64,000 bases of DNA, from assembly GCF_009601685.2 (NCBI RefSeq), contig NZ_CP045701.2:4402001-4466000 (forward strand), in the 5' to 3' direction. This document shows, piece by piece, positions 1 to 23,008 of this stretch. The stretch is from Pseudomonas brassicacearum (GTDB lineage: Bacteria > Pseudomonadota > Gammaproteobacteria > Pseudomonadales > Pseudomonadaceae). A program made the position numbers and the translations under genes. Position 1 is the stretch's first letter, and every line of letters begins with the position of its first letter. Under the pieces are notes generated by a model. It was not told the DNA's origin. It was given only the letters and a program-made list of their open reading frames with translations, and ran no database searches.

Positions 1-236
1 GTTTTGAAGCGCTCGGATTCTAAGCGCTTGAGCCAAAGACAGAAGCCGTTGCGCTCCCAGTACAAGATCTTCACGCGGTTGCGGGACTTGTTGAGAAAGA
101 CGAAAAGTATTGGATCGAATACCGCCACTTTTATATCCAGTTCGACCAACGCGGCGAGGCCGTCGATAGATTTTCGAAAGTCCACCGGCTTGGGGTAGAG
201 GTACACTTTTTCGACTTTGGCGTCGGGTCGCATCAT
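1..236 (-). CDS. tnpB: IS66-family TnpB (Orf2), cut by window edge
   Basis: The reverse strand reads MMRPDAKVEKVYLYPKPVDF, then RKSIDGLAALVELDIKVAVF and NKSRNRVKILYWERNGFCLW, the hallmark N-terminal half of IS66 TnpB (the PF05717-type accessory protein). IS66 elements need this protein for transposition although its biochemical role is unclear. The 3' end lies beyond base 1, so intactness cannot be judged. The reading frame upstream (about 240-300) may be the tail of TnpA, which normally overlaps TnpB, but no start is visible before the neighbouring integrase remnant, so the element is probably truncated on this side. Start taken at the first of two adjacent ATG codons. Confidence 0.85.
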   Translation of the reverse strand, partial: MMRPDAKVEKVYLYPKPVDFRKSIDGLAALVELDIKVAVFDPILFVFLNKSRNRVKILYWERNGFCLWLKRLESERFK

Positions 237-314
237 GGCGGGGCTGGCTCCAGAAAGAGATCGGGAGCGAAGCATCGGGGATCAAATGCGGGCTTGGAAT
301 GTGGGGGTCATGGA

Positions 315-980: not shown

Positions 981-1622
981 CTACATATCAATGTACGCAG
1001 GAGGAGCATCTCCGTGCTTGATAGGTTGTTGTGCCCCAGGCAACCATATGCACAGGCGAGACCATATTTGATAGCAGCAGCAATATAGCGCCATTGCATC
1101 TTCATCTTCAGCTGCGCCAACACTGTCCAACTTTTTTTCCGCTGCGTGGCATGCGTCCTTTATCAAGTCTAGAATTATTTGCACGCTAGAATGATCAACA
1201 CCATGCTCGAAGTTGTTCTTCGCAATTGACATCACCTCAGCAAAAATATCGAGATATTCCTGTCGATCATCGGGAGCTGTTATGGTGGCATCATAACCCC
1301 ACCAGTGAATATCTTTCTGCGCCAATACACCGCCTAATAATCTAGCGGTCGAACACGCCCAGGCATAGACTTTGAAACCGGTCAACGCGCGCCCGTCATT
1401 TTCCACAACGGCCTCAACGCCATCGCTATCAATAATTGCCAAACGCGAGCCATGGCTCATCGAGAAAATAGCGCGCTTTTCTCCCAGTAACTGGTCATGA
1501 AGCCTATCTCGCAACGCATCGCAACCAAACAATTCTATATCAGTGTGTGCAGCTATCTTCTTTGCAACTGCAAGATTGGCTGCGGTTTGTCTATCGCTAT
1601 GAGTGACGAAAAAAATAGTCAT
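981..1622 (-). CDS. Small caspase/CHAT-like cysteine protease candidate
   Basis: 213 residues, family not recognised with certainty. Residues 51-58 (AIFSMSHG) followed by a hydrophobic strand ending in YAWACSTA (residues 86-93) place His57 after a beta strand and Cys90 after the next one. This is the usual spacing and context of the catalytic dyad in the caspase-haemoglobinase fold (CHAT, C11, C14 relatives). The N-terminal segment MTIFFVTH also looks like a core beta strand. The C-terminal 60 residues are Cys- and Trp-rich (YCCCYQIW) with no signal peptide or clear membrane helix. The ATG overlaps the stop of the upstream TOPRIM gene (ATGA), so the two are translationally coupled. Function as an abortive-infection effector protease is inference. 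Confidence 0.6.
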   Translation of the reverse strand: MTIFFVTHSDRQTAANLAVAKKIAAHTDIELFGCDALRDRLHDQLLGEKRAIFSMSHGSRLAIIDSDGVEAVVENDGRALTGFKVYAWACSTARLLGGVLAQKDIHWWGYDATITAPDDRQEYLDIFAEVMSIAKNNFEHGVDHSSVQIILDLIKDACHAAEKKLDSVGAAEDEDAMALYCCCYQIWSRLCIWLPGAQQPIKHGDAPPAYIDM

Positions 1623-2425
1623 TTTTTTGCCTTTCGCAGCGTAAAATCCCGAGCAACTCTAAGTAATTCAGTCACATACTGCTTTCCAATCTCTGTCCCC
1701 TCACCAATATTCCTGGCCAATTCAGCTGCACTATAAGTCTCGCCAGCAAGTGTTCGCCACGCTACAGCGTCCCCAGGGAGTTCACGTAGCAACGTAGAAA
1801 AAACGTCACGACTCACTGTGGATGACATGGAGTGATCGGGTAAGTCCGATGCCAGCTCCAAAACGTCACATATACCAGCAAGGAAATTTCTTAAAGAGGG
1901 AGATCTAGCCGCCGCCCTATGAATATCTAAATTCCGCAATACGTTATATCTATGAGGCGACTTCGTGATGCGTAACACTTGGCTTGCTAAATATTTCGGG
2001 TAAGGAATCGACTCTGGCAACGGCATGCGCTCGATGGTTCGTATTGCCGATTCATTCTTTGCGAGTGAACTAGCGATTTTATCATCCGCGAATAGCCAAG
2101 CTTCGATAGTAGGTACTGCACAAAAAACAGGTATCGAGGGATTGCCAAGTTGATGCTTCGCCTCTTCCCTAGAATCAAATACACTTGGTTCATCAGCGTC
2201 TATCAATGCTATGTATTTAGTACTTCCATCATTAGTCAAGTTCTTGATGGTTTTTGCTATGCGGTGTTTGCCATTGCAAACCACCATGGTTGGAGTAAGG
2301 TGAGGGTTCATGGCGTACAAGATATTTTCAACAATGGCTGCATCCGTAGCACCCTCTACAAATATTACCAGTTGTGAAAATTCCAGCGGTATGTTGTTGT
2401 TTTGAAGCATTAATGACTTTCGCAT
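1619..2425 (-). CDS. Stand-alone TOPRIM-domain protein (OLD-like nuclease candidate)
   Basis: 268 residues. The N-terminus carries LVIFVEGATDAAIVENIL (residues 19-36), with Glu24-Gly25 of TOPRIM motif I, and YIALIDADEP (71-80), with the Asp76-x-Asp78 metal pair of motif II; AVPTIEAWLFAD further on fits the TOPRIM of OLD, DUF4435 and DUF3226-type proteins. There is no ATPase domain, so it is not a full OLD or GajA nuclease. The C-terminal half (about 120-268) is helical and unassigned. AAGGAT lies five bases before the ATG. The next gene starts inside its stop codon. TOPRIM nucleases are recurrent defence effectors (PARIS AriB, Gabija GajA), which supports but does not prove a similar role. 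Composition is more AT-rich than the core genome. Confidence 0.7.
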   Translation of the reverse strand: MRKSLMLQNNNIPLEFSQLVIFVEGATDAAIVENILYAMNPHLTPTMVVCNGKHRIAKTIKNLTNDGSTKYIALIDADEPSVFDSREEAKHQLGNPSIPVFCAVPTIEAWLFADDKIASSLAKNESAIRTIERMPLPESIPYPKYLASQVLRITKSPHRYNVLRNLDIHRAAARSPSLRNFLAGICDVLELASDLPDHSMSSTVSRDVFSTLLRELPGDAVAWRTLAGETYSAAELARNIGEGTEIGKQYVTELLRVARDFTLRKAKK

Positions 2426-2789
2426 GATTCATCCTTAATTCTGTGCTGAACTATTTCGATTGTTGATGATTTCATCTGAAATCTGGCGAACTGATGCCTT
2501 TTTTACCAGCCCAAATCGCACTTCGATTGCTGTTTTCCTGGCCGGAGATTAAAAAACAACAAAAAACCGAACCCCGGATTTCGATGTGCCCAAGCCATGG
2601 TTTTGAGACTCGTCAACGAAAGAGAACTTTCTCTCCACTTTAATACTCCCCATCCCGAATGCGGCGGGCCCTACCGGTAGCACATCTTAGCTCATGCCAT
2701 AAAAAATCAGGACCTGAATGGGTGATATGCCACGATAAAAAAGGCAGCACGAAGGGTAGATCAATCTACTCCCCTTAGTGACCGCTTTT

Positions 2790-2975
2790 GGCCGATTCTG
2801 TTGAAAAAGTCGCTTCTTCCAGACTGCCCGGACACTGACCGCTGAAAACGCCTTTTTTACGCGCCGCTACGCGAAATCTGAGCCCGGAGTCTTCTGCTCA
2901 ACGCAAAGATTTCAATCTCAAACGCGTACTTTTCTGTTGTGGAAACCATGACCGACTTTTTCAACAGAATCGGCC
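2790..2975. mobile_element. 186-bp MITE-like element with 23-bp perfect inverted repeats
   Basis: Bases 2790-2812 (ggccgattctgttgaaaaag and three more) are the exact reverse complement of 2953-2975. The 140-bp interior has no coding capacity. The ends resemble IS5/IS1182-type termini seen in Pseudomonas, so it is probably a non-autonomous derivative. No target duplication is obvious. It lies in the 650-bp gap upstream of the TOPRIM gene; bases 2430-2789 otherwise show only the probable promoter region of that gene and nothing recognised. Confidence 0.65.
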
Positions 2976-3006
2976 GATTCCTGCCGGTCAAGACGCACCC
3001 GTGCGC

Positions 3007-3070
3007 TGGTCACGTCCGATGCAAATGGCTGGTCAAGTCGAATGCAAACAGGTGGTCAACTCAGTGCAAT
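3007..3070. repeat. Three IS21-like terminal direct repeats
   Basis: Near-copies of a 19-bp word start at 3007 (tggtcacgtccgatgcaaa), 3030 (tggtcaagtcgaatgcaaa) and 3053 (tggtcaactcagtgcaat), each 23 bp apart. Regularly spaced repeats of the type tggtcaan(6)gcaa are characteristic of IS21-family ends. No istA or istB is present, so this is a leftover end. It abuts the truncated toxin. Confidence 0.55.
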
Positions 3071-3076
3071 TACCCA

Positions 3077-3199
3077 GCTGGCTACCGGGTCTATTTCACC
3101 TTGCGCAGTGGAGTGGTCATCGTGCTACTGGCCGGTGGTGACAAGTCTTCACAGCGTGCTGATATCCGGCGAGCGAAGAAATCGGCAAAGGAGATTTGA
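3077..3199 (+). pseudogene. HigB/RelE-type toxin, C-terminal remnant
   Basis: The frame AGYRVYFTLRSGVVIVLLAG followed by GDKSSQRADIRRAKKSAKEI is the C-terminal third of a HigB-like RelE/ParE superfamily mRNA interferase; only about 40 of roughly 100 residues are left. The frame stays open upstream to 2939 but that part is IS-end sequence, not toxin. The stop (TGA at 3197-3199) lies two bases before the antitoxin ATG, the usual toxin-first HigBA order. The N-terminal part and presumably the promoter have been replaced by the IS21-like repeats, so no toxin activity is expected. Confidence 0.75.
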
Positions 3200-3201
3200 G
3201 C

Positions 3202-3510
3202 ATGAGCCAACACCTGACGACATTTGACATGGCGGCACTTCTCGATAGCGACGAAGCAATCAGCGAATACCTTTCTCAGGTGCTGGCTGATGGCGATAGC
3301 GAGGAGTTTCTCCGAGCGATTGGCTATGTGGCCAAGGCCCGCGGCATGGCGCAGATCGCTAAAGACTCTGGCATGGGGCGAGAAAGCTTGTACAAGGCGT
3401 TCGCACCCGGATCAAAGCCGAGATTTGATACCGTACTCAAGGTCATTCATGCGCTAGGCATTGATCTTCATGCGCAGCCTGGGCATGCAGCTAATCATTC
3501 ACCGGCCTGA
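3202..3510 (+). CDS. higA: HigA-family antitoxin (addiction module antidote)
   Basis: About 102 residues, with a helix-turn-helix of the GMAQIAKDSGMGRESLYKAF type followed by KPRFDTVLKVIHALGIDLHA, typical of the 'probable addiction module antidote' branch of HigA. AAAGGAG at 3187-3193 supports the ATG at 3202 over the TTG six bases earlier. HigA binds and neutralises HigB and represses its own operon; here the partner toxin is only a fragment, so the antitoxin is orphaned. It could still protect against related toxins or act as a regulator (inference). Confidence 0.85.
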   Translation: MSQHLTTFDMAALLDSDEAISEYLSQVLADGDSEEFLRAIGYVAKARGMAQIAKDSGMGRESLYKAFAPGSKPRFDTVLKVIHALGIDLHAQPGHAANHSPA

Positions 3511-3527
3511 CGAACGGATTAGACACC

Positions 3528-3593
3528 GGGACAAACCACGATTTTGAGTTCGCTTGTAAAATCGGCCCGTCTCATAATCGTAGTCTGCCCCCC
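3528..3593. repeat. Imperfect palindromic repeat, copy 1
   Basis: Left arm gggacaaaccacgatt and right arm aatcgtagtctgcccc flank a short core with cttgtaaaatcggccc. The same structure with better arms is at 4410-4472. Sequences of the form GGGGACAGACCACG commonly accompany REP-associated (Y1) transposase relics; that link is recall, not demonstrated here. Confidence 0.5.
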
Positions 3594-3608
3594 GTTTTCC
3601 TCTTATGA

Positions 3609-3632
3609 AACGGGCGGCTTATAAGTCGCCCG
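3609..3632. terminator. Hairpin terminator at 3' end of the small leftward gene
   Basis: acgggcggcttataagtcgcccgt forms a stem of about nine pairs seven bases past the stop codon of the leftward gene. T-rich flanks on both sides mean it could work in either direction and also close the HigA transcript. Confidence 0.55.
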
Positions 3633-3638
3633 TCTTCA

Positions 3639-3911
3639 TTATTCCGCCGCCTGCGCCCGCAATCGTCTTCCAATCACATCCATGACATCACAACCATCGC
3701 GTAACGATGTGGTCAGCAATTTGCAAAAATCAGTCAGCACCACCGTGTCTGAGCTGATGTCCGAGCGAAACGCGATATTTTCCAAGACTTGGGTCACCGT
3801 GCGGATGCGGTAATCGGCGGTTTCGAAAAGGACGTCCAGAGGCGCTTCGGTGTCGATGAGCAGGGTTGCGGGGATGCAGTCGATGCCGGTGATGGGCATG
3901 TATCGGGTCAT
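3639..3911 (-). CDS. Small conserved Pseudomonas protein, DUF3077-like
   Basis: About 90 residues (MTRYMPITGIDCIPATLLID onward). I recall similar short Pseudomonas proteins with an N-terminal ITGI.CIP segment, a helical middle (LDVLFETADYRIRTVTQVLE) and an RRL end; the DUF3077 label is tentative. No catalytic motif, signal peptide or membrane helix. An ATG at 3926 is possible, but AAGG eight bases before the ATG at 3911 favours the shorter form. A strongly structured element lies 60-140 bp upstream and may be its leader. Function unknown. Confidence 0.6.
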   Translation of the reverse strand: MTRYMPITGIDCIPATLLIDTEAPLDVLFETADYRIRTVTQVLENIAFRSDISSDTVVLTDFCKLLTTSLRDGCDVMDVIGRRLRAQAAE

Positions 3912-3971
3912 GAGCAGTACCTTCATTCAATTGATAAGGACTACCACTCAAACGTCGCCAAACGAATGGGG

Positions 3972-4049
3972 TGGCAGCTGTGCTCGGGTTGGCGAACCGG
4001 GAATGAAAGCGAACCGGCAGACTCGAAAGTCTCCCGCACACAGCTGCCA
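3972..4049 (-). ncRNA. Structured leader-like element upstream of the small gene
   Basis: Exact 11-bp arms tggcagctgtg (3972-3982) and cacagctgcca (4039-4049) enclose a second hairpin (gactcgaaagtc, about 4019-4030) and a direct repeat of gcgaaccgg. A three-element fold like this directly before a small Pseudomonas gene suggests a structured 5' leader. Class unknown. The remainder of 3927-4409 holds a second hairpin-rich segment (4060-4110) but no recognised gene. Confidence 0.4.
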
Positions 4050-4409
4050 TAAAGCAGTCTGCAACTGCAAAAAAGCCCCGCAGTGTAGCAGGAGCTTCTG
4101 CGCTTCATTCAGTCGAGTCGCCAAACCCGAATCGCCATCTCGGCGACAGAGGGACAATAAGCTGCGCACCTTGATGCTGCAATGCGCTGGCTTCCGAGGT
4201 TTGTGTAGGAATTTGCGTCAATGCCCCTCGCGACGCTCGTTTGAGTCGTCATAAGCCGCAGCGAAGGGGCGTAGGGGAAAGGAGACGGAAAAGAGGACAG
4301 TTTTTTCCCAAACCAGCCCAAAAAAAGACTTTCAGCGCGGCGAAATAAATCTGTCCCCTTTTTCGGCTAGCGAATCCATTCGATAAAAATTCTCAGCGCA
4401 GCGGAAACC

Positions 4410-4472
4410 GGGGACAGACCACGATTTGAGCTCACTTGTAATCGGCCCATCTAATAATCGTGGCCTGTCCCC
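4410..4472. repeat. Imperfect palindromic repeat, copy 2
   Basis: Arms ggggacagaccacgatt (4410-4426) and aatcgtggcctgtcccc (4456-4472) pair with one mismatch around cttgtaatcggccc, repeating the structure at 3528-3593. The two copies bracket the small leftward gene, as if that gene had moved or been captured between them. Confidence 0.5.
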
Positions 4473-4579
4473 GCTTTCCCCGCTGCGGTTGACTGGACTT
4501 GAGCCTGCATGAAGATCCTGCACAGTTGTCACTCCAGAATAAAAAGACCAGAATAAAGACCTATTCAGGAGTCATATCC

Positions 4580-4867
4580 ATGCAAAATATTCTGGCCGAT
4601 GTGGCCGTCAGCGTATCTGAACTCAAGAAGAACCCATCTTCCGTCTTGAGCGGCGCCAATGGCTTGCCTGTGGCCGTGCTGAACCACAACCGCGTTGTGG
4701 GCTATATGGTCCCCGCGAATGTTTATGAGGCGATGGTCGAGCGCCTGGACGAACTGGAACTCGTACACCTGGCCAAGGCACGGCTCGACGCCAACGAAAC
4801 ACCTGTTCGCGTATCTCTCGACGATCTGATTGGCGAGGCCGAAGCAGATATAGCCAACGGGCGTTGA
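4580..4867 (+). CDS. Phd/YefM-family antitoxin
   Basis: 95 residues. The N-terminus MQNILADVAVSVSELKKNPS, then SVLSGANGLPVAVLNHNRVVGYMVP and a helical C-terminus rich in acidic residues, matches Phd/YefM/StbD antitoxins: an N-terminal DNA-binding and dimer domain plus a C-terminal toxin-binding tail. CAGGAG at 4566-4571 supports the ATG at 4580. The toxin gene follows directly. The antitoxin would bind RelE and repress the operon. Confidence 0.85.
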   Translation: MQNILADVAVSVSELKKNPSSVLSGANGLPVAVLNHNRVVGYMVPANVYEAMVERLDELELVHLAKARLDANETPVRVSLDDLIGEAEADIANGR

Positions 4868-4879
4868 GTACGGAGTCGA

Positions 4880-5143
4880 GTGGGATCCGAAGCGTTGAAA
4901 GAACTGCGAAAGCTGGACGGTGCAATTCGTCTCCAGTTTCTCAAAAAGCTTCAGCAGCGGCAGACCGGCCCGCGAGTGCCAGGCGATGCGCTCCACGGCA
5001 TGAAGGATTGCTACAAGATCAAATTGCGCGGCGCCGGCTACCGACTTGTGTACCGCGTTGAGGATGAGCGAATTGTCATCTTGGTGCTAGCCGTCGGTAA
5101 GCGCGAGCGAAGCTCGGTGTACGAGCAGGCTGGGAACCGATAG
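4880..5143 (+). CDS. RelE-family toxin, probably N-terminally shortened
   Basis: The frame EALKELRKLDGAIRLQFLKK ... GAGYRLVYRVEDERIVILVL ... GKRERSSVY is a RelE mRNA interferase with the normal C-terminal core. The first beta strand (normally like Y.VEWDPKALKEL) is encoded just upstream as EYGVEWDPK but one frame away: the bases tggatccgaagcgttg lack one base around 4889. Either a single-base deletion has inactivated the toxin, or translation starts at GTG 4880 with GGAG four bases before it. The antitoxin lies 12 bp upstream. Confidence 0.7.
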   Translation: MGSEALKELRKLDGAIRLQFLKKLQQRQTGPRVPGDALHGMKDCYKIKLRGAGYRLVYRVEDERIVILVLAVGKRERSSVYEQAGNR

Positions 5144-5529: not shown

Positions 5530-5739
5530 ATGCCCAACTCGGACCTTCTCCCTTCCCTGCTATTCAAGATCCATGAAAACCAACTGGCCCTCGAAGCGGC
5601 CATCATGGAGCTGTCCAATTGGGTCGAACGGCACGGCTCCACCGACGTCGCTGACAACGTACGCGGCGCCCTGGACACCATCGACAAGAACGAGGAGTTC
5701 ATCAAGATGACGCTTGCGGTCCTGATGACACCTGAGTGA
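5530..5739 (+). CDS. Small conserved phage-end protein, function unknown
   Basis: 69 residues (MPNSDLLPSLLFKIHENQLA ...), mostly helical and acidic, no membrane segment. AAGGAG nine bases before the ATG. It is transcribed toward the phage interior from just inside attL, a typical place for lysogen-expressed accessory genes. The preceding 5329-5529 stretch holds the attL-proximal end and a 23-codon open frame at 5351 that I do not call. Confidence 0.6.
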   Translation: MPNSDLLPSLLFKIHENQLALEAAIMELSNWVERHGSTDVADNVRGALDTIDKNEEFIKMTLAVLMTPE

Positions 5740-5950
5740 CCTGCTCATGGTTATCAACCACAGGCTTTACATCGTCCAGCGCCACCCATGGTTGGATGTT
5801 TGCACCGAACAGGGTGCACGTTGGGGAATGAGGGAATTGCATTGATCTATCTACCTCTTGCTGCACTCCGCCGCAGCGCTTGCACCTGACGGTTCCATTC
5901 AAAATGGACCAGTTCTGATGCCAGGCAAGGATCTTATCCAGGGGCGTCAT
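5702..5950 (-). CDS. Small zinc-ribbon-like protein
   Basis: About 82 residues from MTPLDKILAWHQNWSILNGT. VRCKRCGGVQQ ... FPHSPTC gives a C-x2-C ... H-x4-C pattern that fits a small zinc-binding fold seen in Pseudomonas accessory proteins. Its 3' end overlaps the convergent gene at 5530-5739 by 38 bp. The ribosome-binding site is weak, and an upstream TTG/ATG start at 5980 remains possible. Function unknown. Confidence 0.5.
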   Translation of the reverse strand: MTPLDKILAWHQNWSILNGTVRCKRCGGVQQEVDRSMQFPHSPTCTLFGANIQPWVALDDVKPVVDNHEQVTQVSSGPQASS

Positions 5951-6164
5951 ACTGCTGATACCTGTACAAAATATGTACAAAACATACTAACCCCAAGTAT
6001 TTTTGCCTTCAAGACGAGGTTGAAGATGACAGCGGGTGGAGCCTCCAGCGCCGGGCTTTTCGTATGTGCCCGCCAATTTGGCGAGGTATTAATAAGACAT
6101 CATTTACACTCGGCTGTCAGGGTCTATGCTTATACTCCCTCCCCCCCTTCCTTCAGGTCACTGA

Positions 6165-6474: not shown

Positions 6475-6990
6475 CTATCGCTGATTCACTTCTCTGACAT
6501 ACGCCTGGCACGCCTTCAACGCAATCAGCCCCCGGTCGCCGTCGTTGGTGATGGCGACAATTCGTTGAGCATGCGCTGGGTCAAGTTGGGCTCGACGGCC
6601 TCCATGAACCACGCCGACGGCGCCGGGGGTGGTAGGCACTCCGTTGCAACTGGCTGGATCCTCGTCAAGGAGGACTGACAGCCGCAAATCAGCAGTGGCA
6701 AGGCGATCGCGCAGGCGATCTTGAGCTCTCTGGACATTGGTCAACACCTGGTGGTGGGTTTGTTCGCTGGTTGCCAGCTTTTGCTCGAGCGCGAGCCGAT
6801 TGTCCTGCGCCTTCTGAACCTGGGCAGCTGCCGCCCTGCTGATCTCGGCCAGGTCCGACTGGTGAAGGCCGGCCTGCTCGGCCAGCTGCTTTCCGTAGCG
6901 CCAGTCCTGGACCTTCCACGTCGCGCCCACGGCCAGAGCCAGCAGCGCCAGAACGCCGACAGCCCAGGCCTTCAGCCCCAGGGGACTCAT
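6475..6990 (-). CDS. Rz: Rz-like inner-membrane spanin
   Basis: 171 residues. An N-terminal membrane anchor (AWAVGVLALLALAVGAT, residues 7-23) is followed by a long charged coiled-coil region (about 30-115), the architecture of i-spanins. With Rz1 it bridges the periplasm and fuses the inner and outer membranes in the last step of lysis. Its ATG overlaps the endolysin stop (ATGA). The Rz1 gene lies inside it in another frame. Confidence 0.85.
   Translation of the reverse strand: MSPLGLKAWAVGVLALLALAVGATWKVQDWRYGKQLAEQAGLHQSDLAEISRAAAAQVQKAQDNRLALEQKLATSEQTHHQVLTNVQRAQDRLRDRLATADLRLSVLLDEDPASCNGVPTTPGAVGVVHGGRRAQLDPAHAQRIVAITNDGDRGLIALKACQAYVREVNQR
6525..6737 (-). CDS. Rz1: Rz1-like outer-membrane lipoprotein spanin, nested in Rz
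   Basis: 70 residues. A short signal peptide ends in a lipobox-like LLICGC with lipidated Cys20, and the mature part is Pro-rich (CLPPPAPSAW). Nesting of a small lipoprotein in an alternative frame inside the i-spanin gene is the classic Rz/Rz1 arrangement. Confidence 0.85.
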   Translation of the reverse strand: MSRELKIACAIALPLLICGCQSSLTRIQPVATECLPPPAPSAWFMEAVEPNLTQRMLNELSPSPTTATGG

Positions 6991-7412
6991 GGCACATCCT
7001 TGAAGAAAACGTGATTGCCCAGGCGCAGAGTCTGGGTGGCATCCTTGGCCCAGGCCGGCGGCTTCGGCATGGTCGTGGCGTAGTAGTGGGTCGCGCCTTT
7101 CGTGATGTCTGGCTCCTGACCGGAGATCACCAGATCGGCCGCACGCTGCGCTTGGGCGAACTGCTTCGGCGGGATCGGCTTGGCGCCGCTCAGGTAGGGA
7201 TAGTTCGGGTCGTTCTTGTTCCAGCAGCTGAACTGGTACGGCTTCAGGCAAACACCGGCATAGCCCTCGCCCCACCAGGACTTGGCCTTGCCATCGTTCA
7301 CGCGGTTGCGGATCACGCAGGCCACGGCCACCTGGCCGGCGAAACCTTCGCCGCGGGCCTCTCCGTACAACGTCCTCGCCAAAATATCGCGGTCTCTCTC
7401 GGTTGCGGTCAT
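6987..7412 (-). CDS. Endolysin, SleB/cell-wall hydrolase family
   Basis: 141 residues. LARTLYGEARGEGFAGQVAV and VACVIRNRV contain the Glu18 and strand pattern of Hydrolase_2 (SleB-type) muramidases; WWGEGYAGVCLKPYQFSCWN and DITKGATHYY complete the family signature. No signal peptide, so export needs the holin. ATGA overlap with Rz makes a lysis cassette. An intrinsic terminator sits directly upstream. Confidence 0.88.
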   Translation of the reverse strand: MTATERDRDILARTLYGEARGEGFAGQVAVACVIRNRVNDGKAKSWWGEGYAGVCLKPYQFSCWNKNDPNYPYLSGAKPIPPKQFAQAQRAADLVISGQEPDITKGATHYYATTMPKPPAWAKDATQTLRLGNHVFFKDVP

Positions 7413-7427
7413 AACTTTTCTCCAGGC

Positions 7428-7451
7428 AAAAAAATCCCGCTCGATGGCGGG
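7428..7451 (-). terminator. Intra-operon terminator before endolysin
   Basis: Leftward cccgc-catcga-gcggg followed by TTTTTTT, then GCCTGGAGAAAAG that leads into the endolysin ATG. The terminator and ribosome-binding site are fused in one short gap. Confidence 0.7.
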
Positions 7452-7472
7452 TGGCAGACGGCCGATGACGGT

Positions 7473-7934
7473 TTATTCAGGAAGGACCAGTGCTGGCAGT
7501 TCGTTGAGGAAATCATCAATCGCGGGCTGTGGCCGGGCACCGGAAATCACAAGTTCGACTTGTTCATTGGCATACGCCCACACCAGGCTGCGCCAAGCAC
7601 GGAAAGCGCGGCCTTCGTTCTGGAATTTCGCAACAGTCGGCTCCTCGGCGTAGCTGATCGCAGTGAGCAAGCTGTCATAACCGGCCTCACGCGCTTTTTC
7701 GTCCATGAACACCTGTGTCTGCCAGATGAGCTCTTCTTTGATTTCGTCCGGTGTCGGCTCGATCAAGGGCGGTGCGACGGGCTCAGGGGGTAAGGTGACG
7801 CTCAGTCCACCATCAATGGAGACAACCTTTCCTTCCAGAATCCCCGCAAGCGCAGCGGCGTATTGCTGCTCCGTGATTTCGATCCCCTCATCAATTGGGT
7901 CCCTACTGATTTTTCCATTCGATGCAAATGGCAT
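7473..7934 (-). CDS. Tail-fibre assembly/chaperone-like protein
   Basis: 153 residues, placed directly after the fibre gene. The N-terminal segment ITEQQYAAALAGILEGKVVS and the Pro-rich PPEPVAPPLIEPTPDE linker followed by a helical C-terminus are typical of Tfa/DUF4376-like tail accessory proteins in Pseudomonas phages. It shares one base with the fibre stop. Role in folding or attaching the fibre is inferred from family and position. Confidence 0.7.
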   Translation of the reverse strand: MPFASNGKISRDPIDEGIEITEQQYAAALAGILEGKVVSIDGGLSVTLPPEPVAPPLIEPTPDEIKEELIWQTQVFMDEKAREAGYDSLLTAISYAEEPTVAKFQNEGRAFRAWRSLVWAYANEQVELVISGARPQPAIDDFLNELPALVLPE

Positions 7935-8992
7935 TACAGAATCCTCATGTAATAAGTGGCGCCGATGTTCTTCGAGCGGGTCTCCGTGTCGGTACGAACA
8001 ACGGCTGAGGCATCAAAGGTTGTGATGTCTGAGGCGAGTGTTGCGCCAACACCTGCCGTGCTTCTTGCTGCCGCGATGCCGGATGCATTTGTGACGGAAA
8101 GAGCCCCAACCCCCGAATACATTGGTGCGGTGCCGTCGGTCAGTCGGCGCTGCTGGAAAGAACCAGTGATGTTCTGCAGTGCGTCGTTTTGCTTGACGCG
8201 TGGGCTACCGGCACGGATGAAACTCCTGTCGGTGTTGATCAGCGCCACAGTAGCGCCGTTGAAGATGCTGCCTGCAAGGCTGATTACAGCAGTTGCCTCA
8301 ACCAGCGGGGCGGAACCACTCACCGTTTCGCTGGTTAGCAGCCCAGCGTTATAGGCATCAGAGGCCGTGAGCTTGATGTATTTGTAGGTTTGGTTCTGTG
8401 GCGGTGTGTTTCCCGCCGTATCAAACAGAATCGGAAGGGGTACGCCAAGAGGCTGGAAAGCCCAAGGGTCAATGACATTTCTCCCGGTGCCACCTTGGGC
8501 AACGCTCAACGGAGTCGTAAGCCCGGTCAGTGAGGTGATGTCAGCATTCGCTCCAGACTTCGCTGAGCTCAAAGTTAGCCGCCCTGCCGCTGCGTCGGGG
8601 TCGTTCAACATCCCCTGCATGAAGGCAGAAAGATCTGTGATCCCGGTGCCGCCCTTGCTCACCGGCAAAATGTCATAGTTCCCCGTGGTCTTCAGCGCCG
8701 CCAGCTGCGCGCCGTAGGTATTGACGATGGCCCGGAGTGCGTCGGCAGAGTCCTTCACGTAGCCCTGCATTGGCGCCAGCGCGTAACTGCCGCCAGATGC
8801 CGACGCGCCAATATAGGGCGGATCGATGGAAATCGCCGTATTGCTCGCCACGTTTGTGACTTCATACCACCGGCCATCCGGACCACGAAATGCATCGCCG
8901 ACCCGGGAGTTCACGATGAACGCGGTGCCTGTACCGGTTACAGCATTGGAATTCAGGGTGACGGAAACCGTCCCAGTTTTATACCAGGGCAT
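7934..8992 (-). CDS. Tail fibre protein
   Basis: 352 residues. The N-terminus (MPWYKTGTVSVTLNSNAVTG) is a common Pseudomonas/enterobacterial phage fibre head; GYVKDSADALRAIVNTYGAQ is a helical trunk; two VSKGGTGIT / VAQGGTGRN motifs are the tail-fibre repeat family. The C-terminal half is beta-rich and ends with NIGATYYMRIL, the probable receptor-binding end. Host-range determinant. Confidence 0.8.
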   Translation of the reverse strand: MPWYKTGTVSVTLNSNAVTGTGTAFIVNSRVGDAFRGPDGRWYEVTNVASNTAISIDPPYIGASASGGSYALAPMQGYVKDSADALRAIVNTYGAQLAALKTTGNYDILPVSKGGTGITDLSAFMQGMLNDPDAAAGRLTLSSAKSGANADITSLTGLTTPLSVAQGGTGRNVIDPWAFQPLGVPLPILFDTAGNTPPQNQTYKYIKLTASDAYNAGLLTSETVSGSAPLVEATAVISLAGSIFNGATVALINTDRSFIRAGSPRVKQNDALQNITGSFQQRRLTDGTAPMYSGVGALSVTNASGIAAARSTAGVGATLASDITTFDASAVVRTDTETRSKNIGATYYMRIL

Positions 8993-9005
8993 AGGAAGTT
9001 GTCCT

Positions 9006-9680
9006 TTATAATTTTGCGAATACTGCGGGAAGAAAGAATGCGAATGGGTTGTTTGTACCTACAGTAAGTGCGTACAGATTCCCGCCGGAGAAGTCCCACC
9101 AGCAGTACAGAGACCTTGTAAAAGGCTCATCATCAAGCATCGGCATACTGAAAGTATTGATCAGCATGTGCTCCCCTGCCGGGAATGTGAAGTTTACCCT
9201 GTAGTAATTACGAACCTGCCCTTGACTGGTTGTATCACTTTTTACATAGGACCAGTTTTGAAATGACCTCGTGAATCTCGCGTACGGGGTTCCGCTATCA
9301 AATAGCAACTTTGAGTTTCCATCCCAAAGCCGCATACCAAAATCAGCCAAAGCAGTGGCGGCGAATCCGCAAGCAAAATAAGTTCCGTTCGGCTGAAGCG
9401 TATTGACGTCATACGCCCTGACGTAAAAACCCGTCCAAGCACCAGGCGAACCAAGAACACGCATCAAGCACAGGCCGGCAATCCCGCTGCTTCCAGACGG
9501 CCTAACAAAAACAAGCGGCGGTTCTTGGCTTGTAATTGTTCTTGGGAAGGACGTCACCGACCCTAATCCTGATTCTTGAGTTGGGTGATATGTGCCCTTG
9601 GCCAACACAACCAACCTAGTAAACTCCGAGTCAACAGTCACCACATTGTCGTTATTTGTGAACTCTAATCCATAGGCCAT
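9006..9680 (-). CDS. Tail-tip accessory/receptor-binding candidate
   Basis: 224 residues. It opens with MAYGLEFTNNDNVVTVDSEF, similar to the N-terminus of its neighbour at 9680-10003, followed by a beta-rich domain with many aromatic residues (YCWWDFSGGNLYALTVG). Position between J and the fibre suggests a virion tip decoration. Stop and start of the two neighbours share a base. No enzyme motif. Confidence 0.65.
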   Translation of the reverse strand: MAYGLEFTNNDNVVTVDSEFTRLVVLAKGTYHPTQESGLGSVTSFPRTITSQEPPLVFVRPSGSSGIAGLCLMRVLGSPGAWTGFYVRAYDVNTLQPNGTYFACGFAATALADFGMRLWDGNSKLLFDSGTPYARFTRSFQNWSYVKSDTTSQGQVRNYYRVNFTFPAGEHMLINTFSMPMLDDEPFTRSLYCWWDFSGGNLYALTVGTNNPFAFFLPAVFAKL

Positions 9681-10003
9681 CAGGAGAACCTTACTACGAT
9701 TAATCGCATTGTTGAGCTGGTCGTGCTGCTGTATTGCGCCCGCCCCCGGATAAAGCTATAAACTCTGACCGCGCCATTAATGACTTCAGTTTCAAGTTGC
9801 TTATCAGAGTTGACGTTGTAGCTACCGATAGGAACAACAAAAGCAGTTCCATTAGAAGGCGTAAGCCCTGGAACTGCGATTGTTTGGTAGTTTGCGGAGT
9901 TCGAACCAGTAACAATCGAGCTGTGTACAACGCGCATAGTGAAGGACGTTTCATCCAGCGTTACGTTTCCGCTTTCGTCCCAAATCTTCAGCCCAAAGCT
10001 CAT
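9680..10003 (-). CDS. Small tail-tip accessory protein
   Basis: 107 residues, MSFGLKIWDESGNVTLDETS then a beta-rich body ending in TSSTMRLIVVRFS. Same N-terminal plan as the 224-residue neighbour, with a shorter C-terminal domain. ATGA overlap with the end of gene J, so co-translated with it. Confidence 0.65.
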   Translation of the reverse strand: MSFGLKIWDESGNVTLDETSFTMRVVHSSIVTGSNSANYQTIAVPGLTPSNGTAFVVPIGSYNVNSDKQLETEVINGAVRVYSFIRGRAQYSSTTSSTMRLIVVRFS

Positions 10004-13000
10004 GCGGAAAGGTCTCCAAGCTGCACGCGCTTCACACCGTTCTCGTCGTAGACCTTGATCGCGCGGTTGGTCATCGTCAGGCGTCCGCCACCTGGTGCCG
10101 GTCCGTTAAACTCCAGGTTCCCAGACTTATCCAAGCGCCAGCCCTGCGATCCGGCAACATAGTTGTCCGATTGCAGGTACTGGCCGATCTTCAGCATAGT
10201 GATGCTGCCGTCCTCGATAAAGGCAGAGTTCATGAACACCTGGCCGCCCGATACAGCGAACGGCACAGACAGATTGCCGTTGATGCCGTTCACCACCGCA
10301 AACCGATCAACAGCAACCAGGAATTGGCTTTGCAGGCCGGCCCCGGTGTTCTCAATGCCGAGCCCGACACCCGCAGCAACGTATTGGCCTTGAGCGTTGA
10401 CTTGCATCTTCACCGACCACATCGTGTTCAGCTTGCCGCTGGTGTCGGCATAGGCCGTAGACGTCTGCTGAATGGCCGCCGTGTTCGATCCGACTGTTGC
10501 GGTCAGCTGATCGATCTTCGTCGAGGTTGCCGATTCGTTCGTGGCCACCACCTCTTCCAGCGTGGTCAGGTTCGCCGCGTTCTCGCCGATCTGCGCATCG
10601 AAGGTCGTCAGCCGCCGGACGGTTGCCTCGTTTTCGTTCGCCCTGACGCTGGTTTCCTGGGCAATTGCCGCCGTACTGGTCCAGCCCTTGATGGCGTCGG
10701 CCAGCTCCCCTTCCCCGTTGTCGTCGCGGTACGAAGCCCGAAGCGCTTCGAAGGCTGTGGCCTGGGCGGTGACCACGCCGTCAATTTCGGTAATGTCGGC
10801 GGTGTTGGTCGCCACCTGCTGCGCCAGGCCGTTGTTCGCCTCGACCGACTGCCCAACATCGAGCCAGTAGGTGGTGTTGGGCGGTGGTGTGTTGATTGGG
10901 ACCGGGATTTTTGCCTGGAAGATGCGACCGTCCTCCACCACCATCTGGCCCGTCTCATAGGGCTCATCCGGCTTGTAGGCCGACAGCCCGTCGAGCGCGT
11001 CGATTTGGGCCTGAAGGCCTGGGATCTTCTCGATTTCAGTGAGCAGATCTTCGCCGAGTTCCGTTTCGGTGATTTGCCCCTTGATCAGGTCCAAGATCGG
11101 GCCAGCGTCGGAGCTGGCCTGGCCCAGCACGCCGTTGCCGACTGGGTACCATGGTCCGATGTTCCCGATACGGTCCACCAGGCGCGCCCAGAAAAAGAAC
11201 GTGGCGCCGGCCAGCAGGCTTTGCAGGCTGTAGTCGCTCTGGGGATAAGCCAGGTCGGCCAGCTTCGTGGCGTTCTCCAGGACGTTGGTTGACCCGTACC
11301 AGATTTCTGTCCGCTGGGTGTCCTCGGCGCCAGCAGGGAATCCCCACTTGAGGCCGATGCCGAACAGCAGCGAAGCCGCTGTCAGGAACGACACCGCCGG
11401 TGGCAGACCTTCCTTGCCCTTGAGTTCGGTCAGCACGGAGTTACGCCAGATCGACGAGATGTCGAAGGCGCTCACCGCGCGGACGCGGGCCACGTAGCCG
11501 CCCGCATAGATGCCCACCACATCGACGTTGGTCGAGCCTGTGCGCTGGACCTTGATCCAGTTCCCGCTGTCCTTTCGCCATTCGACGTCATAGGCAACCG
11601 CCCCATCGACGGCAGGCCAGCTGATTGTCATGGTGGCCACAGCCAGCCCCTGGACAACCGAGGAGGTCGATACGACTGTGACGCTCGCAGGCGCAGGAAC
11701 GACGGTGATCGGAATAACGCTGATCGGCCGGTCTTCCAGGCGTGCGCCGGTGTCGATGAAAGCGAACTTGCTTGGTTCGTACTGCAGGGCACTGATTTCA
11801 AAATCGCCCTCGGTGGTGCGCTTGGTCCGCAACACCCGGTACAACGGGATCGCCAGGTCGTCAGCATCCAGAGCCCACTGAAGCTGTGCCCGCGGCGCCT
11901 CGCTGTAGGCGACGGTCACGGTCACGGCACGGCCAGCGACGCTCTGCACAGTGCGCCCTTCTGCGCGCCCGCCGGGCAGGTTGATGATCAGTCGGTCCCC
12001 GGCCTTCGCCTGGGTATCACGGTCCAGGGTCACCACGCGACCGGCAACGGCTGAGATCCGCCCGCCAATCTCCCGACCGGCCAACAGCGAGTCGGCCACG
12101 GGGATGATGTGGCCCGGGAGCGGGATTACACCCTCCATGCCGGTCTTGAACGTGACGGTTCGATCCAGGTTGTTGCTCAGGATCGCCCACTTGCCACGGC
12201 GCTGGGCTTCGGAGGCGCGGGTGCAGCCAATGGCGCTCAGCTCGGTTGGCCGGTCCCCATAACGGCGCTGGAGGCTCAGGTCAGAAAACGGAATGACGTC
12301 GGTGTCGTAGTTGTTCGAAGGGTTGTCGTAGCTGACAAGGGCCCGGGTGTACCGGGTCTTCGCCGAGGCGCTGCCGTAGGAGAACTTCCCGTCGATGACG
12401 TTCGCCCGCGTGAAGACGTAGTCGAAGTCCTGGGCCCGAGGCATGTCTGCCTGCATGATCAACTGGCCCTGAGCCCAGTAGGTCATCCCTCGGTAGATGC
12501 CGGAGATGTCCCGCAGCAGCGTCCAGGCGTCGGCCTTGCCTTGCAGGTTCATGTCACAGAGGAAGCGCGGCTCGGTGCCGCCCAGGCCGTCGGGCACAAG
12601 CTGGTCGCAGTACTGCGCGATCCGGTACAGCTCCCACTTGTCGACCATGAACGGCTTGATGCGCTTGCCCAGGCCGAAACGCTCCTCTGTGCAAATGCCG
12701 TATGTGATCCAGGCCGGGTTATTGGTCCAGGCCAGCTTCATGCTGCCATCCCAGGTGCCGGCGTACGTCCTGGCGATCGGGTCGTAGTTGCTCGGAACCT
12801 GCCACTTCCTGGCCTTGCACTTCACGGTGACGGCCGGGATGTTGGTGAACTGCTCGGCGTCGAACTCGATGTAGAGCAGCGCGGTGTTCGGGTAGCGCAG
12901 CTTCGCGTCGATCACCTCGGTGAAGCCAGCGATCAGCATCGTGTCGGCGATCTTGTTGCTGTTCTGGTTGGGTGTCAGGCGGCGGACGCGGATCTGCCAG

Positions 13001-13563
13001 CCCGTGGTTGCCTCAGGCAGGTCGACACGTTTGGAGCGCTCGTAGCGGGTGGTGGTCTTCCCATCCACAGCATCTGTCAGCACCTGCTGATAGGCTCCGC
13101 CGTCGGTAGCCACGTCGATTGCATACTCGATGCGATAGCCGCCAATGTTGCCTTGGTCGTCCTGGCGCTGGAGCGCTGGCCAGGCGAAGCGCAGGCGCAC
13201 GGCTGAAAGCTGGGTGTTCGTCACGGACCGAACCCAGGCTGCATCGCTGCGCAGCTCGATGTTCAGCGATGTCTCGTTCTCGACGGATGGAATGCCTGGG
13301 ATGTAGGTCTGATCGACAGAGCCGGAGCGCCACTCCCACTTCACGTTGGGGAAGTTGACGTTGCCGCTGGCGTCATTGATTGGCGTGTTGTCAAGGAAGA
13401 TGGTCGCCGCAGTGGGAGACTCCTCAAACTCGCCCTCGCCCACGGCGATCAACAGCTTGGCAATATTCGTGGAGCGCAGGTTGTCGCTGGCCTCAGTCGG
13501 GGACTTAGGCTTTTTGTCTCCGCCTTTCGCGCCGTGAATATCGATCTTGCGTGCTGCTCCCAT
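10000..13563 (-). CDS. J: Tail tip host-specificity protein J
   Basis: 1187 residues, the usual size for lambda J. The N-terminus (AARKIDIHGAKGG..KPKSPTEASDNLRS) is the conserved phage-tail_3/TipJ start; the middle holds the hub domains and fibronectin-type III repeats (about 620-800, PAPASVTVVSTSSVVQGLAV); a coiled-coil stalk (about 850-1040) precedes the C-terminal receptor-binding part (DUF1983-like, about 1040-1187). GGAGG precedes the ATG. J forms the central tail tip and sets host range. Confidence 0.92.
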   Translation of the reverse strand: MGAARKIDIHGAKGGDKKPKSPTEASDNLRSTNIAKLLIAVGEGEFEESPTAATIFLDNTPINDASGNVNFPNVKWEWRSGSVDQTYIPGIPSVENETSLNIELRSDAAWVRSVTNTQLSAVRLRFAWPALQRQDDQGNIGGYRIEYAIDVATDGGAYQQVLTDAVDGKTTTRYERSKRVDLPEATTGWQIRVRRLTPNQNSNKIADTMLIAGFTEVIDAKLRYPNTALLYIEFDAEQFTNIPAVTVKCKARKWQVPSNYDPIARTYAGTWDGSMKLAWTNNPAWITYGICTEERFGLGKRIKPFMVDKWELYRIAQYCDQLVPDGLGGTEPRFLCDMNLQGKADAWTLLRDISGIYRGMTYWAQGQLIMQADMPRAQDFDYVFTRANVIDGKFSYGSASAKTRYTRALVSYDNPSNNYDTDVIPFSDLSLQRRYGDRPTELSAIGCTRASEAQRRGKWAILSNNLDRTVTFKTGMEGVIPLPGHIIPVADSLLAGREIGGRISAVAGRVVTLDRDTQAKAGDRLIINLPGGRAEGRTVQSVAGRAVTVTVAYSEAPRAQLQWALDADDLAIPLYRVLRTKRTTEGDFEISALQYEPSKFAFIDTGARLEDRPISVIPITVVPAPASVTVVSTSSVVQGLAVATMTISWPAVDGAVAYDVEWRKDSGNWIKVQRTGSTNVDVVGIYAGGYVARVRAVSAFDISSIWRNSVLTELKGKEGLPPAVSFLTAASLLFGIGLKWGFPAGAEDTQRTEIWYGSTNVLENATKLADLAYPQSDYSLQSLLAGATFFFWARLVDRIGNIGPWYPVGNGVLGQASSDAGPILDLIKGQITETELGEDLLTEIEKIPGLQAQIDALDGLSAYKPDEPYETGQMVVEDGRIFQAKIPVPINTPPPNTTYWLDVGQSVEANNGLAQQVATNTADITEIDGVVTAQATAFEALRASYRDDNGEGELADAIKGWTSTAAIAQETSVRANENEATVRRLTTFDAQIGENAANLTTLEEVVATNESATSTKIDQLTATVGSNTAAIQQTSTAYADTSGKLNTMWSVKMQVNAQGQYVAAGVGLGIENTGAGLQSQFLVAVDRFAVVNGINGNLSVPFAVSGGQVFMNSAFIEDGSITMLKIGQYLQSDNYVAGSQGWRLDKSGNLEFNGPAPGGGRLTMTNRAIKVYDENGVKRVQLGDLSA

Positions 13564-13578
13564 GCTTTCCTCCAGGCG

Positions 13579-13601
13579 AAAAAAAACCGCCTCATGGGCG
13601 G
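13579..13601 (-). terminator. Intra-operon terminator between I and J
   Basis: Leftward ccgcc-catga-ggcgg plus eight T, then CGCCTGGAGGAAAGC and the J start codon. Confidence 0.7.
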
Positions 13602-13620
13602 CCTGCTTACTGCGTTCGGG

Positions 13621-14211
13621 TTACGTTTTGTCTTCGGCGTATATCGATGCGGAAATAATCATCCCGCCCCACCGGCGGTCGCCGATGGGGATCGGCACGG
13701 GGTAGCCGCTGGCTGTGGTGTTCTTGGCGCTGCCGAAGGCGTAGGACGGTGCGTTGTCAGGGGATGCGCTTTGCTTAAGGCCGGACGCCTGGGGGCTTAG
13801 CATCTGGATGACGCCACCAGCGACGAGGCCAACGCCAAGCTGAACAGCCCACGGCTGCCCAAAATACGTGCCCGCAGCGACCAGAACGGCGCCGACGATT
13901 GTCTGTAGGAGGCCGGCACGCTTACTACCAGACACCAGCGGTACGATGCGTATCTCTTGTGCGCCCCCGAGTGAAAAATCCTTCTCGGCCACATTCTGAC
14001 GATTCCTGAAGATCGCAAAGCGCATCCCCTTGCGCTCGAGGTCCCTAATCGCCGCCTCAAATCCTTCGAGGGTGCATTTGAGGGCCTTGAAAGCCTCACC
14101 CACGGACCTGCTGCCAAGCTGACGATAGTGGGCGCGTCCGAACAGCTTGATAAGCGGTCCAGAAAGAAGAATGGTGGTCATGGCTGGGTTGTTGCTGAGC
14201 GTGGCTGCCAA
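13621..14211 (-). CDS. I: Tail assembly protein I
   Basis: 196 residues. FGRAHYRQLGSRSVGEAFKA, the Gly/Ala-rich membrane-like segment LLQTIVGAVLVAAGTYFG and the C-terminal YAFGSAKNTTASGYPVPIPI GD match the lambda TipI family. GGAG eight bases before the TTG at 14211 supports that start; the ATG at 14181 has no ribosome-binding site. Works with K and J in tip assembly. Confidence 0.85.
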   Translation of the reverse strand: MAATLSNNPAMTTILLSGPLIKLFGRAHYRQLGSRSVGEAFKALKCTLEGFEAAIRDLERKGMRFAIFRNRQNVAEKDFSLGGAQEIRIVPLVSGSKRAGLLQTIVGAVLVAAGTYFGQPWAVQLGVGLVAGGVIQMLSPQASGLKQSASPDNAPSYAFGSAKNTTASGYPVPIPIGDRRWGGMIISASIYAEDKT

Positions 14212-14228
14212 GGCTTTTCTCCGGGCGT

Positions 14229-14249
14229 AAAAAAACCGCCCGGAGGCGG
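14229..14249 (-). terminator. Intra-operon terminator before gene I
   Basis: Leftward ccgcc-tccg-ggcgg and seven T followed by ACGCCCGGAGAAAAG, the same layout as before J and the endolysin. Confidence 0.7.
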
Positions 14250-14256
14250 CTTGTTG

Positions 14257-14655
14257 TCATTGCATGGTGGGCGATAAGTCCATGCTCATCGCTGAGTCCA
14301 TGGATATCCTGAATTTCTTGGTGCTGCCGGCCTTGATGTTGGTTTCCCGCTCCTTCAAGCCGCTACCGCAGGCTGACGCCGAGACAATGTGCTCACCTGG
14401 AGCAACGCGGAATTTCGCCGTCTCGCCGGAACCGATCTCTGCCGCCCTGTGGCCATCGATGCTCAACGTCGTATTGCAGCCGGCGCCCACGAAGCCATTG
14501 TCCCGAGTAACGACAAGGGTCGAATCACCTTGAGTCGGAGCTTGAAATGCGAACATCCTGGACGACGGGACCGGGTCAGCTTCGCTGGAAGGAACCGGGG
14601 AGGTTGCACACCCCGTCAGCAAAGCAATAGCCGCCGCGCCTACGAACAATCTCAT
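14257..14655 (-). CDS. Small phage lipoprotein (accessory gene)
   Basis: 132 residues. MRLFVGAAAIALLTGCATSP is a lipoprotein signal with Cys16; the mature part (STLVVTRDNGFVGAGCNTTL ... GSGETAKFRVAPGEHIV) looks like a small beta-sandwich, PEGA-like. AGGAG eight bases before the ATG. It interrupts the usual K-I order and is probably made by the lysogen or late in infection. Surface exclusion is a reasonable guess, not shown. Confidence 0.7.
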   Translation of the reverse strand: MRLFVGAAAIALLTGCATSPVPSSEADPVPSSRMFAFQAPTQGDSTLVVTRDNGFVGAGCNTTLSIDGHRAAEIGSGETAKFRVAPGEHIVSASACGSGLKERETNIKAGSTKKFRISMDSAMSMDLSPTMQ

Positions 14656-14747
14656 GGGGTCACTCCTGTGGAAGATGGTCACAAGATATCAGAAATGAAA
14701 AAAGCCCAGCGGGCGCGCTGGGCATACCTAGCTTGCTGAGCCCATGC

Positions 14748-14933
14748 CTATCCGAGAGAACGAATTTCGCCAAGCGCCCTTGAAATGCAGTAAGGGATGA
14801 CGGCGCACGCAACACCCATAGCTGCAGCAGCAGCCTCTTGCGGCGCACTCTGTGCCGCATACATACCTCCAAATGCTATGACTGCACCAGCGAGAGACAT
14901 CAGAACAGTGACGATCCACATTAGCTTGACCAT
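14748..14933 (-). CDS. Small two-helix membrane protein
   Basis: 61 residues. Helix 1 MWIVTVLMSLAGAVIAFGGM and helix 2 AAAAAMGVACAVIPYCISRA flank a short loop. Lies between K and the lipoprotein gene. No known family assigned with confidence; position suggests an accessory gene. Bases 14934-15059 hold nothing recognised. Confidence 0.55.
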   Translation of the reverse strand: MVKLMWIVTVLMSLAGAVIAFGGMYAAQSAPQEAAAAAMGVACAVIPYCISRALGEIRSLG

Positions 14934-15059
14934 TTCAATCCTTTGGCGGTTTCAGGTTGACTCAGAAAAAGTGAGCAACTAGCTGTTTTGCCAATTTAGT
15001 ACGCAAGATGAAGTGAAGTCAAACCGCCATTACGCAACCGATTTCATCAGTTCCTTCAT

Positions 15060-15821: not shown

Positions 15822-15823
15822 GG

Positions 15824-16573: not shown

Positions 16574-16582
16574 GATTGCCCC

Positions 16583-19796: not shown

Positions 19797-19799
19797 AAA

Positions 19800-20467: not shown

Positions 20468-20476
20468 GGGACTTCC

Positions 20477-21205: not shown

Positions 21206-21250
21206 TTTCGTACTCCCCGATTTCCTGCGAAATCACTGTTTGACGGGCAT

Positions 21251-21271
21251 AAAAAAACCCGCCGGGGCGGG
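21251..21271 (-). terminator. Intra-operon terminator upstream of tail tube gene
   Basis: Leftward cccgcc-cc-ggcggg with seven T, 45 bp before the tube gene start. Separates the head/connector block from the abundantly made tube protein. Confidence 0.7.
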
Positions 21272-21290
21272 TCGTTCTTTCTGGTGCGGT

Positions 21291-22951: not shown

Positions 22952-22969
22952 ATTGCCTCCGGAAACAAG

Positions 22970-22992
22970 AAGGCCGGCGATACGCCGGCCTT
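22970..22992. other. Stem-loop between capsid and small gene
   Basis: aaggccggcg-ata-cgccggcctt, ten perfect pairs, no T run on the coding strand. May slow 3' decay or lower downstream expression relative to capsid. Confidence 0.55.
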
Positions 22993-23008
22993 CATGGGGT
23001 TTGGTGGA

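Follow-up and report, generated by a model that had tools for sequence, protein, structure and literature searches.

A mobile gene pair of a predicted OLD-type TOPRIM nuclease and a caspase-like protease, a candidate defence module of Pseudomonas

Results

Two overlapping genes under purifying selection

We analysed a 64,000-nucleotide stretch of the Pseudomonas brassicacearum genome (contig NZ_CP045701.2, positions 4,402,001–4,466,000; hereafter the window) that carries, near its left edge, a pair of genes encoding a TOPRIM protein (gene 1) and a small protein with a caspase/CHAT-like fold (gene 2). An initial annotation, made from the sequence alone, had proposed the two as an unrecognised module and had pointed to their overlap, their AT-richness and their candidate active-site residues. 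Both open reading frames (ORFs) lie on the minus strand where that annotation had placed them and overlap by four bases, the ATGA that holds the gene 1 stop codon and the gene 2 start codon (Table 1), and the two genes are probably translationally coupled through this overlap. The difference in composition was also confirmed, with a guanine-cytosine (GC) content of 44.6% for one gene and 47.2% for the other, compared with 58.8% for the whole window. A Shine-Dalgarno-like motif lies ahead of gene 1, and a scan of the pair region for promoters and terminators gave no signal above chance. The longest stop-free frame in this region spans 269 codons, whereas none of 300 single-base shuffles yielded one longer than 215. 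Between the window and a second copy of the pair in Pseudomonas sp. Irchel 3E13, the ratio of nonsynonymous to synonymous substitution rates (dN/dS) is 0.127 for gene 1 and 0.163 for gene 2, indicating that both genes are under purifying selection. These low ratios, together with a stop-free frame longer than that in any of the shuffles, argue that the frames did not arise by chance.

Table 1. Coordinates of the gene pair and its features in the P. brassicacearum window
Feature	Position	Strand	Remarks
Gene 1	1619..2425	-	OLD-type TOPRIM protein by predicted fold, 268 residues; DUF4276 (PF14103) plus extra C-terminal domain
Gene 2	981..1622	-	Minimal caspase/CHAT-fold protein by predicted fold, with His57 and Cys90, 213 residues
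ATGA overlap	1619..1622	-	Gene 1 stop and gene 2 start; also in L001, L002 and L003
Shine-Dalgarno-like AAGGA	2432..2436	-	6 bases ahead of the gene 1 ATG
Gene 1 Glu24 codon	2354..2356	-	TOPRIM acidic residue; E24 in 92/93 rows, remaining row gapped
Gene 1 Asp76-x-Asp78 codons	2192..2200	-	TOPRIM DxD; D76 and D78 in 93/93 rows
Gene 1 C-terminal domain	1622..1873	-	Residues 185-268; starts with a low-confidence linker
Gene 2 His57 codon	1452..1454	-	Putative catalytic dyad; H57 in 47/47 rows
Gene 2 Cys90 codon	1353..1355	-	Putative catalytic dyad; C90 in 47/47 rows

Predicted TOPRIM and caspase/CHAT folds

Gene 1 scored above the Pfam cut-off for both PF20469 and PF14103 (DUF4276). Its predicted structure was closest to OLD, PARIS AriB and GajA, with the C-terminal regions of OLD proteins as the top fold matches, and the acidic residues singled out by the initial annotation (E24, D76 and D78) are all present and conserved across the gene-1 family. 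On the modelled fold and these residues, we place gene 1 among the OLD-type TOPRIM proteins, with predicted nuclease activity. Foldseek with the gene 1 model gave no match in the PDB at E ≤ 0.001, and neither gene had a credible match when single proteins or profiles were compared with PDB sequences; the fold assignment of both genes rests on the agreement of many related rows in a second structural alignment. Beyond its DUF4276 region, gene 1 carries a C-terminal domain that had no significant match in Pfam or the PDB and whose profile, in a search that scored some of the first-look candidates, matched at least 1 of 299 genomes, namely the window's own. Its linker (about residues 191–210) was modelled with blocks of predicted local distance difference test (pLDDT) score of 64 and 66 and contains Arg206, a residue kept in 91 of 93 rows, which we suggest on sequence grounds as a possible cleavage point.

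The gene 2 model (pLDDT 95.9) is a single domain with a minimal caspase/CHAT fold, whose relatives by fold are SAVED-CHAT, gingipain, separase, caspases and TPR-CHAT. Structure prediction thus returned both of the folds that had been claimed for the pair, neither being absent from the models. The window protein matched no Pfam or PADLOC family, and PF12770 (CHAT) and PF00656 (Peptidase_C14) were absent from the Pfam matches of 47 gene-2 family members at E values up to 1. Foldseek with the model found no match at E ≤ 0.001 in the PDB or BFVD; the third row of the BFVD search was a Megaviridae caspase-domain protein, with E above 0.001. The histidine and cysteine named earlier (H57 in MSHG, C90 in WACS) are present, and His-Gly at positions 57–58 and C90 are invariant in the 47 rows; we assign them as a putative dyad from the sequence. 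With an alpha/beta fold and these His-Gly and Cys positions, the modelled gene 2 protein belongs to the clan CD caspase/CHAT fold, and protease activity is predicted. Asp118, present in 44 of 47 rows, may form an acidic S1 pocket with a preference for basic P1 residues, a pocket that we presume to resemble those of CHAT proteases and separase. Since the residue sets of both proteins are conserved, both activities are probably used.

A further histidine, His203 (window 1014–1016), is the third invariant His/Cys of gene 2 (47/47); it lies in the C-terminal tail, distant in sequence from the dyad.

The two genes are inherited together

We read four loci that carry the pair: the window, L001 (Pseudomonas sivasensis P7), L002 (Pseudomonas sp. 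Irchel 3E13) and L003 (a 13.7-kb virus contig). The genes were adjacent with a four-base overlap in all four, so that the adjacency expected from the initial annotation was found across genomes and homologues that are never adjacent were not what we saw. An all-against-all comparison of frames found the pair alone, with frames overlapping it, to be common to the four loci; the window and L001 additionally have one lysis-type prophage gene in common.

For a wider test of co-inheritance, we used the 120 gene-1 homologues that were listed out of 169 and a gene-2 profile search in which 7997 candidates were scored. Of the 46 gene-2 homologues, at least 29 lay on contigs identical in size to that of a listed gene-1 homologue, and three named records, from Delftia, R. 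leguminosarum and a Bacteroidota metagenome-assembled genome, number the two genes with consecutive locus tags. The other 17 gene-2 homologues, with no size-matched gene 1 among those listed, lay on contigs down to 1.0 kb and also included two Klebsiella clusters on chromosome-sized contigs. Conversely, 91 gene-1 homologues of the 120 had no gene-2 partner on a contig of identical size. Pairs were matched by this identity of contig size, not by reading each contig. For the resulting 30 pairs (29 plus the window), the distance matrices of the two genes agreed with r 0.897, compared with a maximum of 0.349 in 5000 permutations; nearest neighbours agreed for only 18 of the 30. We conclude that gene 1 and gene 2 are co-inherited and travel together between different mobile elements. 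That they are coincidental neighbours with no joint function would fit the AT-rich patchwork in which they lie, and nothing further; we rejected this explanation as extremely improbable on the adjacency in four of four loci, the consecutive locus tags and the mirrored distance matrices.

The family is rare. In genome searches in which only part of the first-look candidates was scored, genomes with a match numbered at least one among 398 from the phylum (1e-10), at least two among 398 from the genus (1e-5) and at least one among 369 from the class (1e-10), and the gene-2 profile matched at least 1 of 299 genomes. Neither gene had a tblastn match in plasmids, and blastn of the pair against E. 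coli genomes gave no match.

An ATPase is missing from beside the TOPRIM gene

When 200 genomes from the phylum were searched for PF14103, 51 had matches, with up to seven per genome. From these we assembled a comparison set of 30 loci from the best-scoring genomes and 20 further loci picked by hand, mostly weaker matches. A Walker-A ATPase lay directly upstream of DUF4276 in 27 of the 30 best-scoring loci and in 19 of the 20 others, 46 of 50 in total, indicating that DUF4276 is normally one half of an ATPase-TOPRIM pair; eight of the 27 upstream proteins were put to Pfam and all eight were AAA_21. At the four exceptions (L017, L033, L039 and L056), the contig extended 622, 161, 910 and about 940 bases upstream of the match, respectively, and L017 had a Walker-A frame downstream of DUF4276 instead. 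Beside the gene pair, no ABC ATPase or AriA-like ORF was seen in the window, L001, L002 or L003, the search being confined to these loci and not extended elsewhere in the genome. Of the 20 loci picked by hand, 18 had a DUF4276 frame that stopped within 23 codons of the match, so the C-terminal domain of gene 1 looks like an addition in the protease-paired family. This family thus differs from ordinary DUF4276 genes in having no adjacent ATPase, a protease gene that follows and an extra C-terminal domain.

We also considered whether the pair is an ordinary member of HEC-01 or PARIS and rejected this, as no ATPase adjoins it. In PADLOC, HEC-01 comprises HEC-01A, which we take to be an ATPase, and HEC-01B; the pair showed a match of HEC-01B to part of gene 1, with no ATPase neighbour, and PDLC04194 was found in all 93 gene-1 family members. 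In the literature searched we found no paper naming DUF4276, though it is common in the phylum sample.

The pair resides in different mobile elements

Pfam contexts at the loci read supported the mobile-element setting that had been proposed. In the window, the pair is flanked on one side by IS66 with an integrase fragment and on the other by prophage tail and cell-wall hydrolase genes; the L001 pair adjoins prophage genes; the L002 pair is cargo of a Tni-type transposon that encodes a Mu-type transposase together with TniB and TniQ, and Peptidase_C14 and trypsin genes are close by; and the L003 pair lies between phage terminase and portal genes. This last position would suit a housekeeping pair of a phage or mobile element, a DNA-processing enzyme with a maturation protease, rather than a defence module. 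Such a role is made unlikely by the lack of any tblastn match for either gene in 50,697 phage records and by scans of the virus collection that produced one contig only, L003 (two further scans gave the same contig). The pair also occurs on bacterial chromosomes and within a Tni-type transposon, and homologues are named from Klebsiella, Pantoea and Rhizobium.

The initial annotation had been more specific about the window, placing the pair between integrase and insertion-sequence remnants, next to toxin-antitoxin genes and a transfer RNA (tRNA) integration site. IS66 (TnpB, TnpC) was indeed found at the left edge (L011 16052–18275; window 1–275), with a C-terminal fragment of a tyrosine integrase beside it, just beyond the window edge; a frame at 315–497 that looks integrase-like by eye had no Pfam match. 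The toxin-antitoxin genes were found at 3.2–5.1 kb of the window. The tRNA site does not adjoin the pair, the tRNAs lying at 47.7–49.8 kb, some 45 kb away.

These neighbours bear on another explanation, in which the pair itself acts like a toxin-antitoxin system, with a toxic TOPRIM nuclease restrained by the protease (or by a non-catalytic version of its fold), or the reverse, and with any anti-phage action secondary. A small overlapping two-gene operon in mobile-element settings, near toxin-antitoxin genes, would suit such a system. The invariance of H57 and C90, however, makes a purely structural antitoxin role unlikely, and the other three loci do not share the toxin-antitoxin genes that neighbour the pair in the window; we regard this explanation as improbable, to the same degree as the housekeeping role.

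Several neighbouring genes were recorded in their own right. The toxin-antitoxin region of the window (2939–5143) contains an HI1420-like antidote gene (3199–3510) followed by a YafN-like antitoxin and a RelE-type toxin, and an 86-residue frame preceding the HI1420-like gene resembles, by eye, the end of a HigB-type toxin. On the minus strand, genes for prophage lysis and tail proteins occupy 6475–24300, starting about 4 kb from the pair. Left of IS66, a 330-residue ORF (L011 14867–15859) had no Pfam or PADLOC match. In L003, a gene for a Mor-type activator (5561–6058) lies between the terminase gene and the pair and may control expression of the cargo. In L002, a second caspase gene, encoding Peptidase_C14 plus SH3, and the trypsin gene adjoin each other (together 10053–12778, minus strand) in the same transposon cargo as the pair. 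When ten neighbour proteins were put to PADLOC, only the L002 proteases matched, to 'caspase' at 5.4e-13 and, in part, to LmuA at 2.1e-6; the three toxin-antitoxin frames of the window and the ORF left of IS66 gave no match. The L002 Peptidase_C14 and trypsin genes are possibly another protease-based conflict system.

Discussion

Our analysis points to a real, co-inherited and mobile module with predicted TOPRIM-nuclease and caspase-protease parts, for which defence is the most likely role. We give a probability of roughly 0.5 to the interpretation that this is a two-gene anti-phage or anti-mobile-element module in which the caspase-like protease controls the OLD-type TOPRIM nuclease. That the pair travels together between different mobile elements suggests an antiviral switch that has not been described.

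The closest studied case is Canu (caspase-nuclease, CanABC), in which a caspase complex turns a gated nuclease into a potent one and defence is abolished by mutating either active site (Tuck et al., 2025; PMC12799240). In both systems a caspase-family protease gene lies beside a nuclease gene, the two parts being predicted here from fold and Pfam, and the pairing and its probable logic, a protease controlling a nuclease, are alike; Canu is located in defence islands and near transposases (PMC12799240). However, the Canu nuclease CanC is of the metallo-beta-lactamase type whereas gene 1 is of the OLD-type TOPRIM class, and CanA has an immunoglobulin-like domain and its prototype a third gene, canB, whereas gene 2 is a bare 213-residue domain and the four loci have two genes only, with no shared third gene. 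The terms 'TOPRIM', 'DUF4276', 'OLD' and 'CHAT' were not found in the main text of that report. The initial annotation had been aware of no published system made up of this pair alone. This holds insofar as we found no description of a TOPRIM-caspase or TOPRIM-CHAT pair among the papers listed by our literature searches, although one may exist elsewhere; pairing a caspase with a nuclease has, as a wider idea, lost its novelty, because Canu was published in 2025 (PMC12799240).

Other known systems share one half of the pair. PARIS consists of an ATPase, AriA, that activates a TOPRIM nuclease, AriB, which cuts host tRNAs (PMC12839542); the partner in the gene pair is a protease instead, and gene 1 has an additional domain. 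OLD nucleases, Gabija GajA and the retron-Eco8 effector resemble gene 1 in having a TOPRIM domain with acidic residues, but are fusions of an ABC ATPase with TOPRIM (PMC10568477). Among CHAT proteases of defence systems (SAVED-CHAT, TPR-CHAT in Craspase/Csx29, and Borvo), the partner is a CRISPR effector or a second-messenger sensor, whereas gene 2 is partnered by a TOPRIM protein, has no Pfam CHAT match and has no sensor domain attached. The EACC1-caspase systems are likewise two-gene conflict modules with a caspase-superfamily peptidase, but there the peptidase is always partnered by a transmembrane EACC1 domain (Kaur et al., 2020; PMC7159879); the text of that paper did not contain the terms 'TOPRIM' or 'DUF4276'.

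From these parts we infer a defence role, catalysis, a protease acting upstream, a gate and a trigger, which would combine as follows. Gene 1 would encode a metal-dependent OLD-type TOPRIM nuclease without its usual neighbouring ABC-type ATPase, and the cysteine protease of gene 2 would replace that ATPase as the control element. The TOPRIM enzyme would be kept inactive, with the extra C-terminal domain and flexible linker serving as a gate or docking surface. Upon infection, the gene 2 protease may cut or remodel the gene 1 protein and so free the nuclease, which would then destroy nucleic acid, either DNA or, as in PARIS, tRNA; RNA is a possible target because the PARIS nuclease cuts host tRNAs (PMC12839542). 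The phage would be halted through killing or arrest of the cell. We propose that gene 2 licenses gene 1 by analogy with Canu, the closest studied case, in which the caspase activates the nuclease (PMC12799240). We hold somewhat more tentatively the fuller claim that this is an undescribed defence system in which a TOPRIM nuclease swapped its ABC ATPase for a caspase-like protease, gained a gate or docking domain and arose independently of Canu.

The serious rival is the reverse order, put forward in the initial annotation, in which the TOPRIM protein and its C-terminal domain sense or process phage nucleic acid and activate the protease, whose targets would be proteins of the host or the phage. 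Because gene 2 is a bare protease domain with no recognisable sensor, recognition could reside in gene 1 with its additional domain, and there is precedent in Craspase (gRAMP with TPR-CHAT), where a nucleic-acid-bound partner switches a CHAT protease (PMC9729208). However, OLD-type TOPRIM domains have been described as nucleases, with an ABC ATPase as partner (PMC10568477), and the nearest published caspase-nuclease system runs the opposite way (PMC12799240). By these analogies, a protease that licenses the TOPRIM nuclease appears likelier than a TOPRIM protein that licenses the protease, and we put the chance of the reverse order at about one in four.

If the protease does control the nuclease, the pair would be a second bacterial counterpart of the nuclease that caspases activate when animal cells die, and would demonstrate that OLD-type TOPRIM systems can exchange the component that senses or licenses. 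Caspase control of a nuclease could then be studied in a minimal system of two genes. Finally, the pair would extend the protease-nuclease principle published in 2025 to an unrelated nuclease, in line with the discussion of the Canu report, where other enzyme classes are held possible for this principle (PMC12799240).
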